Positions 8,380 through 46,750 of a stretch of DNA of 64,000 nt are shown in pieces. The first letter of the stretch is position 1. Every line of letters starts with the position of its first letter. The DNA is from Nocardiaceae bacterium (GTDB lineage Bacteria > Actinomycetota > Actinomycetes > Mycobacteriales > Mycobacteriaceae). The position numbers were made by a program, and so were the translations under genes. Location of the stretch: positions 1 to 64,000 of the forward strand of contig JAJFUQ010000146.1 in the NCBI GenBank assembly GCA_021372355.1, read 5' to 3'. The notes under the pieces were generated by a model. That model ran no database searches, was not told the DNA's origin, and saw nothing but the letters and a program-made list of their open reading frames with translations.

Positions 8380-11313
8380 ATGACACCCAGGCCGATTCGA
8401 ATCATTCGCGCGCAGCTGAGGAGCGCTCGGCAGTTCGCCGAGGCGGTTCGTCGGGACCCGCGAATACTCCGCGAAATCGGAGCCGAATTGATGGGCCGGA
8501 AGCACACCGGTCCGGCTCCGGTTCCGGGTTCGGCTGCCGCACCGCCAGAATTGGACGGCTTCGACCGGCAGACTCGGGCCAGCGTTCACCTCGCTGCCGG
8601 GCCCAAAACCGTCGCGGCCTTTGTGAGCGACCTTGGTCGTCTGCCGGACTGGTTGACGGTCCATGCCGGATTCCGGGGCGAGCCACCCGTGGCGGCATAT
8701 CCGGGTCTCGAGTTCATCCAGCAGGCCAAGCTCATGGGAATTCCTGCCGATGTCGCGTGGACTGTCGTTTCGGTCGGCGACGCGGGAGTCGAGATGCGCG
8801 GCAGCGGGCCGATGGGTCTCACGCTGGGGTTCTGGCTGGTCGTCGAGCCTGACGCCCCGGGAGAGTCGACGTTGTCGGTGTTTGTCGGGCTTGCGGGTCA
8901 GCCCGTGGCGGGCCCGCTCGGAGCATCGCTGCTGCGCAGTTTCACCGAAAGTCTCGAGGAGTCGCTTGAGCGGCTCTCGGTGGCCGTCGGGTCGTCGGAC
9001 GGCGCGAAAGCAACTTCGCGTCAGCCGGTTCTGCACGAAGCCACCGGAACCATGCTGCCGCCGAACACCCCGGTCCTCGTCGGCGTCGGGCAAGTCGTCG
9101 ACAGGATGCCGAATCCGGCACGCGATCCGGCGGCAATGGCCGCCCAAGCTCTTCGACAAGCGGCTCGCGACTGCGGTGCCGGTGAGGCGATGCTCCGGTC
9201 CGCCGATGCGGTGTTCGCGGTTGCTTCCGCGTCTTGGCAGTACCGCGATCTCGGTGCGGCCGTCGCTGCTGCGTTGGGTGCAGCGCCCGCCGAAACAGTG
9301 CAATCCGTGCCCTTCGGAGGGGACGCCGGACAAGTGCTCGTGAACGAGGCGGCAGAGTCGGTCGCCACCGGGAAGCACCGAATCGTGCTGGTGGCAGGTG
9401 CCGAAGCGGGTGCCACGCTGGCCAGCCACCCCACGTTGTCCTGGCCCGGGCAGCCGTCGACCGTTCGTCCGACTCGAGTCGTCGGCGTGGACAAGCCGGG
9501 CAACAACGACTCGGAAACCGCGGTCGGACTCGGGGCTCCGATCTATCTCTTCGCGCTCATGGACTCGGCGAATCGCCGCCGCCTCGGTCTGCCGCCGCGC
9601 GAGCATGCGTACGCCAACGCGGCGCTGTGGTCGACGTTGTCGACGATTGCGGCGCAGAACCCGTATGCATGGCAGCCGCAGGAATTCGACGCGGATTCGC
9701 TCCTCGACGTCTCCGACGGCAACCGCATGATCACGTCGCCGTACACCAAGCTGCTGTGCGCGAATTTGCAGGTGGACATGGCCAGCGGTGTCATCGTCTG
9801 CAGCGCGGCAGCGGCGCAGGAGGCGGGAATTCCGCAGGACAAATGGGTCTTCATTCACGCTGGAGCGTCGGCGCACGACGAATGGTTCGCGACCGAGCGC
9901 GCCGATTTGGCGGCGTCTCCGGCGATCCGGACGATCGGCAGGTCTGCGCTCGATCATGCGGGCCTGAGCATCGACGACATCGATGAAGTCGACTTCTACT
10001 CGTGCTTCCCGTCCGCCGTCCAGATCGCGGCGCGCGAGTTAGGGCTGCCGATCAACGATCCTTCTCGACCCTTGTCGGTGACGGGTGGGTTGACGTTCGG
10101 CGGTGGCCCGGGCAACAACTTCGCTGGTCACTCGATATCGACGATGGTCGAGCGACTGCGCAGCCGTCCGGAGTCGTACGGTCTGACGACGTCGCTTGGC
10201 TGGTACCTCACCAAGCACTCGATCGGGGTGTACTCGGCCAAACCGCCGGCGAAGCCATATCAGTACCTCAAGCCGTTCGTCGATCACCCGCCGTCGCGAC
10301 CGGTACGTACCACCTATCGCGGGTCTGCGGTGATCGATGCGTACACCGTGCCGTACGGCCGTGATGGAGAACCGGAAGCGGCGATCGTCAGCGCGATCGC
10401 ACCGGACGGGTCCCGCGTACTCGTGCGCGTCAAGGCACCCGATGTCATCAGTGAACTCCTCGATGACGACGCATTGGGTCTTCCGGTCATGGTGGAAGGG
10501 GATGCCGTCACCATCACCAGTCGCGATCGAACCGATCTGCCTGCGCCACCTGAACCGCCGGTTCTCGTGGAACGTCGTGGACCGGTCATGGTGATCACGT
10601 TGAACCGGCCCGAGGTTCGCAATGCCGTCAACCTCGCCATGGCGACGGCCCTCGAACGAGCCATCGACAGTTTCGAAGCTGACCCCATGGCGCAGGTTGC
10701 GATCCTCACTGGCGCCGGCGGCTACTTCAGCGCGGGCATGGATCTTAAAGCCGCTGCGCGCGGAGAGGTTCCGATGACGGAGCGGCGCGGACCGCTCGGC
10801 CTTGCGGGACGGCCGCCGCGGAAACCGCTCATTGCGGCCGTCGAGGGTCCAGCGCTCGCTGGCGGCTGTGAACTGGCACTCTCGGCTGACCTCATCGTCG
10901 CCGCTTCGAATTCCCAGTTCGGAATTCCGGAACCGAAGCGCGGACTCGTCGCAGCCGGCGGCGGTGTTTATCGGTTGCGAGAGCGACTGCCCCGAAACAT
11001 CGCTATGCAGCTCGCCCTCACCGGCGATCCGATGCCGGCGGCGGCACTGGCTTCGTATGGGCTGGTCAACGAAGTGACCGAACCCGGCCAGGCGCTTGCC
11101 GGGGCTCTGCGGCTGGCCGAACAGATCGCGGTCAATGCACCCCTGAGCTTGCTCGCGAGCAAACAAATCATCGACGAGAGCAGCGATTGGTCGACCGGAG
11201 AAGCGTTCGCGCGGCAGAACGACATCGCGTCTCAGGCGTTGTTCTCGGCCGATGCGACAGAAGGGATCATGGCCTTCGCGGAGAAGCGGGCGCCCGTGTG
11301 GACCGGTCGCTGA
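8380..11313 (+). CDS. SRPBCC / thiolase-like (TLP1-type) / crotonase three-domain fusion
   Basis: One uninterrupted 977-residue frame. Residues about 50-200 resemble an SRPBCC lipid-binding domain (ASVHLAAGPKTVAAFVSDL). About 230-640 is a thiolase-superfamily domain with GGPGNNFAGHSI; the usual nucleophilic cysteine region reads VQSVPFGGDAG, without cysteine. About 640-720 matches the extra C-terminal domain of thiolase-like protein type 1. About 726-977 is a crotonase domain retaining both acid/base glutamates (E831 in GGCELAL, E851 in GIPEPKRG). The ATG at 8380 has GAGGAG six bases upstream. Likely cytosolic acyl-CoA or lipid chemistry with the hydratase part active and the thiolase part non-classical; the substrate is unknown. 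Control by the adjacent TetR is inferred. Confidence 0.88.
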   Translation: MTPRPIRIIRAQLRSARQFAEAVRRDPRILREIGAELMGRKHTGPAPVPGSAAAPPELDGFDRQTRASVHLAAGPKTVAAFVSDLGRLPDWLTVHAGFRGEPPVAAYPGLEFIQQAKLMGIPADVAWTVVSVGDAGVEMRGSGPMGLTLGFWLVVEPDAPGESTLSVFVGLAGQPVAGPLGASLLRSFTESLEESLERLSVAVGSSDGAKATSRQPVLHEATGTMLPPNTPVLVGVGQVVDRMPNPARDPAAMAAQALRQAARDCGAGEAMLRSADAVFAVASASWQYRDLGAAVAAALGAAPAETVQSVPFGGDAGQVLVNEAAESVATGKHRIVLVAGAEAGATLASHPTLSWPGQPSTVRPTRVVGVDKPGNNDSETAVGLGAPIYLFALMDSANRRRLGLPPREHAYANAALWSTLSTIAAQNPYAWQPQEFDADSLLDVSDGNRMITSPYTKLLCANLQVDMASGVIVCSAAAAQEAGIPQDKWVFIHAGASAHDEWFATERADLAASPAIRTIGRSALDHAGLSIDDIDEVDFYSCFPSAVQIAARELGLPINDPSRPLSVTGGLTFGGGPGNNFAGHSISTMVERLRSRPESYGLTTSLGWYLTKHSIGVYSAKPPAKPYQYLKPFVDHPPSRPVRTTYRGSAVIDAYTVPYGRDGEPEAAIVSAIAPDGSRVLVRVKAPDVISELLDDDALGLPVMVEGDAVTITSRDRTDLPAPPEPPVLVERRGPVMVITLNRPEVRNAVNLAMATALERAIDSFEADPMAQVAILTGAGGYFSAGMDLKAAARGEVPMTERRGPLGLAGRPPRKPLIAAVEGPALAGGCELALSADLIVAASNSQFGIPEPKRGLVAAGGGVYRLRERLPRNIAMQLALTGDPMPAAALASYGLVNEVTEPGQALAGALRLAEQIAVNAPLSLLASKQIIDESSDWSTGEAFARQNDIASQALFSADATEGIMAFAEKRAPVWTGR

Positions 11314-45516: not shown

Positions 45517-46449
45517 GTGCGAAGAGCTGTGATCATGTGGTGCGATCGATTGGTGTTCACCTCGAATCCGCTGACTGGTCGACTTTCCTCCGTTGCGACG
45601 TCCCGAGAACTTGCTCTTGACCTGCAGCGCGTCGCCATCGAGGTGGGCCTCGAAGCGGCGGCCCACGTTCGTCGCCGACGCGTTGAGTTGTATTCGCGCC
45701 CAAGGGAACAGGACTTCGCCGCGACCAAGTCATCGCCGACCGATCCGGTGACGATCGTCGACACGGAGTCAGAGGAAGTCATCCGGCGGGCGTTGAGCAG
45801 TCGTCGCCCGGGAGATTCGGTACTCGGCGAAGAAGGCGGCGGGCCGGCGCGCACCGATGCCGCGGTCCAGTGGGTCGTCGACCCGATCGACGGGACCGTG
45901 AACTTCATGTACGGATTGCCGGCGTACGCGGTTTCGGTCGCCGCGGCGCACGCGGGCGTCTTCGTCGCGGGCGCGGTGGCCGACGTGAACTCTGGAGACA
46001 CCTACACGGCCGCCTTGGGCGCGGGTGCACATCGAATCTCGCCCTCCGGCGAATGGACGCCGCTCCGCGTCAATGCGCCGTCGTCGTTACAGCTCTCCCT
46101 GGTGGCGACCGGATTCGGATACGCCGCCTCCAGGCGTGCAGAACAGGGACGAATCGTGGCCGGGCTGCTGCCGCACGTGCGCGATATCCGGCGCCTGGGT
46201 TCGGCGGCGATCGATTTGTGTTTGCTCGCTTCGGGACAGGTCGACGCCTATTACGAGCACGGCCTGAACGTCTGGGACTGGGCGGCGGGGGCCCTGATCG
46301 CACAGGAAGCCGGTGCCGTCGTGGAATTGCCGGCCGCTGATGCTCCGGGAAGTGCCGGCCACATCGTGGCGGCCTCCGCGCCGAGCGTCGCGGAGGCCTT
46401 TGCCGATGCCCTCCGCGAACTCAATGCGGTGGGCGCTATTCCGGTTTGA
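45517..46449 (+). CDS. suhB: Inositol monophosphatase family protein (SuhB-like)
   Basis: Up to 310 residues; Mg-dependent phosphatase for myo-inositol-1-phosphate, needed for phosphatidylinositol and mycothiol supply. Motifs in order: DPVTIVDTESEE, GEEGG with the first metal-binding glutamate, WVVDPIDGTVNFMYGLP with the Asp pair, and the C-terminal NVWDWAAGALIAQEAGA. The start is uncertain: GTG 45517, ATG 45535 or GTG 45553. Divergent from ppgK with 14 bases between. Confidence 0.93.
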   Translation: MRRAVIMWCDRLVFTSNPLTGRLSSVATSRELALDLQRVAIEVGLEAAAHVRRRRVELYSRPREQDFAATKSSPTDPVTIVDTESEEVIRRALSSRRPGDSVLGEEGGGPARTDAAVQWVVDPIDGTVNFMYGLPAYAVSVAAAHAGVFVAGAVADVNSGDTYTAALGAGAHRISPSGEWTPLRVNAPSSLQLSLVATGFGYAASRRAEQGRIVAGLLPHVRDIRRLGSAAIDLCLLASGQVDAYYEHGLNVWDWAAGALIAQEAGAVVELPAADAPGSAGHIVAASAPSVAEAFADALRELNAVGAIPV

Positions 46450-46458
46450 TGCCGTGAA

Positions 46459-46638
46459 TCAGCAGTAGTAGGCGGTGTCGGTGTAACCGTCGCAGTCGGT
46501 GTCCGTCTCGGCGTAGTCGAAGTAGCCGTCCACGTTCGTGTCGACCGCGATGGTGTCGAGATAGCCGTCGCCGTTGGTGTCGAGCTCTGCGGTCTCGTAG
46601 TAGCCGTCTGCGTTCGTGTCGTACCAGTAGCCGTTCAT
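46459..46638 (-). CDS. 59-residue EF-hand-like calcium-binding repeat protein
   Basis: Short gene easily missed by length filters. Almost the entire protein is four tandem 13-residue repeats of the form DTNxDGYxxTxxx, with loops beginning at residues 7, 20, 33 and 46. Each has D1, N/D3, D5 and G6 of an EF-hand/dockerin loop, and the first and third also have E12. Cysteines at 49 and 59 (last residue). ATG 46638 has AGAGGGA five bases upstream. No signal peptide or membrane segment. It lies between suhB (convergent) and cei. Ca2+ binding is inferred from the motif. Confidence 0.8.
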   Translation of the reverse strand: MNGYWYDTNADGYYETAELDTNGDGYLDTIAVDTNVDGYFDYAETDTDCDGYTDTAYYC

Positions 46639-46750
46639 GGTTTCCCTCTCTGCGTTCCGTTCGCTCTTCGGCGATTCAGAACGTCAGATGTGGGAAGTGC
46701 GGCAAAGGTTCCCGCGGATTCCAAAATTCTTTTTGGAGGTTGCGACCTCG

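Follow-up and report, generated by a model that had tools for sequence, protein, structure and literature searches.

Regulons of ECF sigma factors are governed by sigma proteins with Sigma70_r2 and r4_2 domains and share a GGGAAC-type -35 element upstream of several genes; SigM-type promoters carry CGTC at -10. Mycobacterial iniBAC, which is reported to be under HpoR repression (PMC13413693), includes two adjacent dynamin-like GTPases, IniA and IniC; IniA remodels and severs membranes, and its proposed role is in plasma membrane integrity (PMC6715688). Among calcium-binding loops, the pattern Dx[DNST]x[DN][GADN]xx[DE] defines the strand-turn-strand calcium blades (PMC3123361) of integrin-like/VCBS/FG-GAP beta-propellers (PMC3123361, PMC8023676), and DUF6802 (PF20615) groups proteins of actinobacteria that contain D.[DN].DG segments. 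Here we analyzed a 64,000-nt stretch of DNA (the window) from a genome assigned to Smaragdicoccus and found a tiny gene that combines features of these systems: acidic repeats of predicted metal-loop type behind an ECF-type promoter, with relatives beside a sigma factor and IniA-like dynamins.

The original prediction placed a four-repeat reading frame at 46459-46638. The coordinates are real, but the strand was missed: the frame lies on the minus strand, and the plus-strand reading of the interval contains no repeats. Translation of the minus-strand ORF gives MNGYWYDTNADGYYETAELDTNGDGYLDTIAVDTNVDGYFDYAETDTDCDGYTDTAYYC, with units at residues 7, 20, 33 and 46 as predicted, each an exact 13-residue DxNxDGxx[DE] unit; not one of 1,000,000 composition-matched shuffles produced three units in register. 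As DNA, the four units are only 62-74% identical. Hence, they are no fresh tandem duplication, and the repeat is maintained at the protein level. Fifteen of the 59 residues are Asp or Glu and none is basic, and the absence of a signal peptide was borne out (maximum Kyte-Doolittle 19-mer -0.03). No Pfam or NCBIfam model matched the protein above its cut-off. The location between the IMPase gene and cei was likewise confirmed (Table 1), whereas the idea that the ORF is too small for normal gene calling was mistaken, since the lower size limit of Prodigal is about 30 aa and 59 aa is not below the usual limits. Besides the strand, the original prediction had missed two things: that the ORF has many relatives and that an ECF-type promoter precedes it.

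Table 1. Features at the repeat locus of the window
Feature	Coordinates	Strand	Details
Inositol monophosphatase gene (suhB), flanking the repeat ORF	45517-46449	+	PF00459 8.6e-58
Repeat ORF, 59 aa	46459..46638	-	ATG at 46638, stop 46461-46459; Lys/Arg/His = 0
Repeat 4, DTDCDGYTDTAYY	46465..46503	-	residues 46-58
Repeat 3, DTNVDGYFDYAET	46504..46542	-	residues 33-45
Repeat 2, DTNGDGYLDTIAV	46543..46581	-	residues 20-32
Repeat 1, DTNADGYYETAEL	46582..46620	-	residues 7-19
Conserved 5' leader with AGAGAGGG ribosome site	46639..46683	-	from S. niigatensis alignment; putative transcription start
ECF-type promoter GGGAACCTT-N14-CATCTGA	46684..46713	-	-35 46713-46705, 14-nt spacer, -10 46690-46684
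cei, flanking the repeat ORF on the other side	47434-46751	-	NCBIfam integrity_Cei 3.9e-76

Selection on the ORF was assessed with one other Smaragdicoccus genome, S. niigatensis DSM 44881 (L009/L106), which has a 93-95% identical orthologue in identical synteny, between suhB and cei. The two ORFs differ at 11 of 177 bases, and half of these differences are synonymous compared with one-fifth of the sites (pS 0.156, pN 0.039, dN/dS about 0.23, Fisher p 0.017); the synonymous excess is restricted to the repeat frame, and the other frames have no such excess. A ratio near 1, which the original prediction had named as evidence against the frame, was not found. The start, the stop, the 5' leader and the predicted ribosome site are all kept in S. 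niigatensis, and identity drops sharply immediately 3' of the stop. In the orthologue, Gly and Ser replace the two cysteines from which an oligomerising unit had been proposed, and most relatives contain no cysteine at all, so this suggestion does not stand. Purifying selection is supported, and the repeat ORF is a genuine gene.

Relatives at E <= 0.001 were found in 93 of the 301 genomes of the GTDB family. Further ones occur among other actinobacteria, such as Glycomyces and Virgisporangium, and on plasmids of Rhodococcus, Gordonia and Prescottella (including Prescottella equi). In a set of 23 members, the interval between successive motifs is exactly 13 residues in 125 of 161 cases. The family unit is D1 x [DN]3 x D5 G6 x x D9; the acidic ligand positions of the predicted metal loop are conserved throughout, with D/E at position 9 in 94% of units, positions 1, 3, 5 and 6 being fixed by the search pattern. 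The relatives are acidic, many extremely so, the translated ones have no obvious signal peptide, and they range from 59-72 aa in Smaragdicoccus and Williamsia to about 400 aa, with widely varying repeat number. The window ORF belongs to a Mycobacteriales family of leaderless, acidic proteins built from 13-residue Dx[DN]xDGxx[DE] repeats, and no shorter member was seen. Outside the genus, the relatives have neither cei nor suhB in the flanks examined; hence, a functional tie to these two genes was rejected, and the site of the window ORF looks incidental. A phage origin was also rejected, as tblastn against 50,697 phage records gave zero matches. Separately, the Glycomyces repeat genes (L111, L118, L117) have in common the upstream block GTTGGCACACTCTGGGGATTCACGGC, which is unlike the GGGAAC promoter described below, so control of the repeat genes may differ there.

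The promoter sits 75 nt 5' of the repeat ATG. The weight matrix used for scoring was derived almost entirely from sites in other genera; with it, the promoter reaches 26.8 bits, the top value in the 64 kb, compared with 12.0 for the next separate site on either strand and maxima of 10.6-17.6 bits in simulated sequence. Upstream regions of the relatives share GGGAAC[ACT]TT followed by a CATC-type -10, consensus CATC[TC][AC]A, in contrast to the CGTC of SigM-type promoters. The pattern by which genes were assigned to the regulon, GGGAACNTT-N14/15-CATC upstream of the start, is present before the window ORF. In S. niigatensis, the -35 is kept and the -10 is the variant CTCTTA, also found in Williamsia, because of which the site scores only 14.3 bits; the longer Smaragdicoccus repeat gene near the sigma factor has the one-base -35 variant CGGAAC.

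In 19 clusters of 11-20 kb each, we found the promoter 5' of 11/18 sampled repeat genes compared with 8/267 other genes (p 1e-10, shared ancestry ignored), as well as 6/20 genes for a small acidic protein and 3/6 DUF7373 genes; genes in the fetched loci were called by a heuristic, and some start sites may be off. Most of the eight 'other' genes look like further members, encoding a GrpE-like protein, lipoproteins and Gly-rich proteins. None of 18 sigma genes has the promoter directly upstream, although in several genera the acidic-protein gene next to sigma does. Only 1/24 dynamin genes and 1/14 Hsp70 genes have their own copy; hence, their regulon membership leans on clustering more than on promoters. 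Across the 301 genomes, the strict pattern occurs 129 times, compared with once for the reversed pattern.

Similar elements were seen at other small genes. A 75-aa Tyr/Ser/Asp-rich protein, MDDYGYDYGYMDYSGSS... (L069:1717-1944, minus strand, G000:C144), is encoded about 64 nt 3' of a like promoter, has no family match and is a possible further tiny regulon member. In both Smaragdicoccus species, GGGAACTTT...CTCC stands directly before the start of a 155-aa lipoprotein gene (L067:2040-2507, plus strand; L073:1506-1973, minus strand). Gly-rich proteins of 172-190 aa bear a regulon-type promoter in L154:5644-6216 (minus strand), where the gene is divergent from dynamin genes, and in L166:13911-14429 (plus strand); these are possible counterparts of IniB.

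A longer Smaragdicoccus paralogue (186 aa, L066) adjoins an ECF sigma factor gene. The candidate sigma gene is at G000:C181, and the window repeat gene is on another contig. The sigma protein has Sigma70_r2 and r4_2 domains, and its best NCBIfam match is SigM PRK09643 (1.4e-38, under the cut-off of that model). This sigma lineage is present in 72 of the 301 genomes, 62 of which also carry repeats (Fisher p 3e-30, phylogeny ignored), and 50 of 78 sigma matches have a listed repeat gene no more than 20 kb away. Corroborating the linkage, 113 of the 129 promoter sites fall in the 72 sigma-bearing genomes and 16 in the other 229, shared ancestry again ignored. Orphan repeat genes fit the same picture as the window copy: in genome G078, a promoter at C1:1316670 stands just before the repeat gene at 1316845 and the sigma gene is at 10116, and other promoter-bearing orphans also lie far from the sigma cluster. 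A sigma-repeat-promoter regulon across Mycobacteriales is strongly supported, and, going by this genomic association, a sigma factor of the G000:C181 type would read the GGGAAC/CATC promoter. In three Gordonia genomes (genus g8; G116:C62, G128:C50, G281:C71), the ECF sigma match beside repeat genes contains one in-frame stop.

The recurrent cluster includes the ECF sigma factor, IniA-like dynamin GTPases, Hsp70-, GrpE-, DUF7373- and C39-like peptidase genes and a small acidic protein. It is also present on Rhodococcus plasmids, on one of which the order is dynamin, GTPase, Hsp70, repeat protein, C39 peptidase, small protein and sigma-70, annotated piecemeal. As in iniBAC, two dynamin-like GTPases are adjacent (phmmer to M. 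smegmatis IniA 2.9e-6 and 9.3e-9), but here an ECF sigma factor and repeat proteins accompany them. A response to envelope or membrane stress is suggested by the make-up of the cluster, given that IniA severs membranes and is proposed to serve plasma membrane integrity (PMC6715688). The gene beside sigma in most clusters encodes the small acidic protein (100-158 aa; L066:6023-6322 and L066:11072-11377, both minus strand), a soluble protein with a conserved VWxxALxxAxDPxxPxxDxxLVPxxDD and then an Asp/His-rich tail, without a match in Pfam or NCBIfam; it may regulate the sigma factor and is a candidate for that role. Among the clusters examined, none showed a recognisable anti-sigma factor of the typical kind. 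The regulon is apparently undescribed: the open-access literature covered holds no account of a sigma/repeat/dynamin module, the main ECF classification paper, in which an earlier mention is possible, being outside that coverage.

AlphaFold2 modelled the window protein as all beta with no helix (mean pLDDT 90.8, which the input of a 40-row alignment built from gapless repeat segments may inflate), with strands at residues 2-6, 16-20, 29-32, 42-45 and 55-58 and the DxNxDG loops between them. The model of a 9-repeat Gordonia protein (124 aa) was too poor for use (pLDDT 63.8), and Foldseek found no significant fold match in the PDB for either model (best E 1.6 for the window protein). All four repeats fit the calcium-blade pattern Dx[DNST]x[DN][GADN]xx[DE], and the motif is conserved family-wide; as in the blades (PMC3123361, PMC8023676), it stands between beta strands, but the unit here is only 13 residues, in direct tandem, and the four-stranded blade is absent. 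VCBS/FG-GAP propeller membership was rejected because a propeller needs more than 59 aa, and the FG-GAP_3 profile gave a single weak match (0.0048) among 23 members. At the level of the loop, the protein would thus work like a calcium blade; it belongs with neither EF-hands nor propellers, and Ca2+ is presumably the ion bound. DUF6802 membership was also rejected (10.5 bits, E 0.62, cut-off 27 bits), although 7/23 repeat members match DUF6802 at E <= 0.1. The best DUF6802 match is another protein of the same genome (1.1e-18, 67.5 bits), which has two DxDxDG loops and is encoded at L071:1913-2239 (plus strand, G000:C203) beside GTPase-like and phosphoenolpyruvate carboxykinase-like genes.

The original prediction had called the repeats EF-hand-like, and a miniature EF-hand protein, that is, a calmodulin-like helix-loop-helix Ca2+ sensor, would explain why loop positions 1, 3, 5, 6 and 9 agree with EF-hands (PF13202, PF00036) and why PDB profile matches are mostly EF-hand loops. 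However, the EF-hand HMMs stay under their cut-offs (17.7 bits where 25.9 is required, and 16.8 where 25.4 is), the EF-hand combination of a hydrophobic residue at 8 and Glu/Asp at 12 is lacking (position 12 is variable, A/L/E/V, rather than Glu), a 13-residue period is too tight for helices, and the helix-free model offers no helix-loop-helix; we consider this identity very unlikely. Even harder to credit is a chance open frame or a decayed piece of a longer repeat gene. Such an origin would suit the small size of the ORF and its position alone between two conserved genes, but not its purifying selection, its conserved start, leader, stop and promoter, or the comparably short stand-alone members in Williamsia (71-72 aa).

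The identity of the ligand leaves more room. The concentration of free Ca2+ in the cytosol normally stays below the micromolar range, at which loops that lack Glu12 may be empty in resting cells, and with so acidic a composition, shared by many relatives, the repeats might bind Mg2+/Mn2+ or no ion and the protein might act as an osmotic, charge or crowding protein or as a DNA-mimic inhibitor. Loops of the VCBS superfamily may indeed recognise metal cations besides Ca2+ (PMC8023676). We regard this account as possible but unlikely, and for charge alone the loop geometry is too strict and Gly6 and position 9 are too well conserved. Another reading puts the proteins in the signal path, with Ca2+-loaded repeats or the small acidic protein holding or releasing the ECF sigma factor; it draws on the tight linkage of the repeat, acidic-protein and sigma genes and on the lack of a recognised anti-sigma factor in those clusters, and is made improbable by the distance of the window copy from the sigma gene and by a repeat number that varies unlike that of a specific protein partner.

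The window gene is probably a satellite target of an ECF regulon for envelope/membrane stress, and its product is probably an acidic protein of the cytosol that takes on its fold when Ca2+ binds. When the envelope or membrane is stressed, the sigma factor would transcribe the repeat gene from its GGGAAC/CATC promoter, and a highly acidic, largely unfolded repeat protein would build up in the cytosol. Ca2+ leaking in would then fill the loops, one ion per loop, and the loaded chain would fold into a small beta sheet whose strands are linked by the calcium loops. The folded protein may buffer Ca2+, or may be a Ca2+-triggered structural partner or scaffold near the dynamin/Hsp70 membrane-maintenance machinery. 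A further, speculative step, which we think rather unlikely, is a response to membrane damage under ECF control in Mycobacteriales: Ca2+ coming in where the membrane is breached would fold the tandem 13-residue loop proteins, the 59-aa one among them, and these would act with IniA-like dynamins and the Hsp70-like chaperone; if true, such a response would be a bacterial counterpart of Ca2+-triggered membrane repair.

An isolated tiny ORF thus gives entry to an ECF regulon that recurs in Smaragdicoccus, Gordonia, Williamsia and Dietzia, on Rhodococcus plasmids and in other Mycobacteriales. The regulon comes with a defined promoter, a candidate sigma factor and associated genes, and it connects IniA-like dynamins to an Hsp70-like protein and to leaderless proteins of the calcium-loop type. 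Since trypsin would not cut a protein without Lys or Arg, such proteins may escape tryptic proteomics. For the study of Ca2+ function inside bacterial cells, this family offers a minimal protein with four predicted sites, which is accessible to chemical synthesis.
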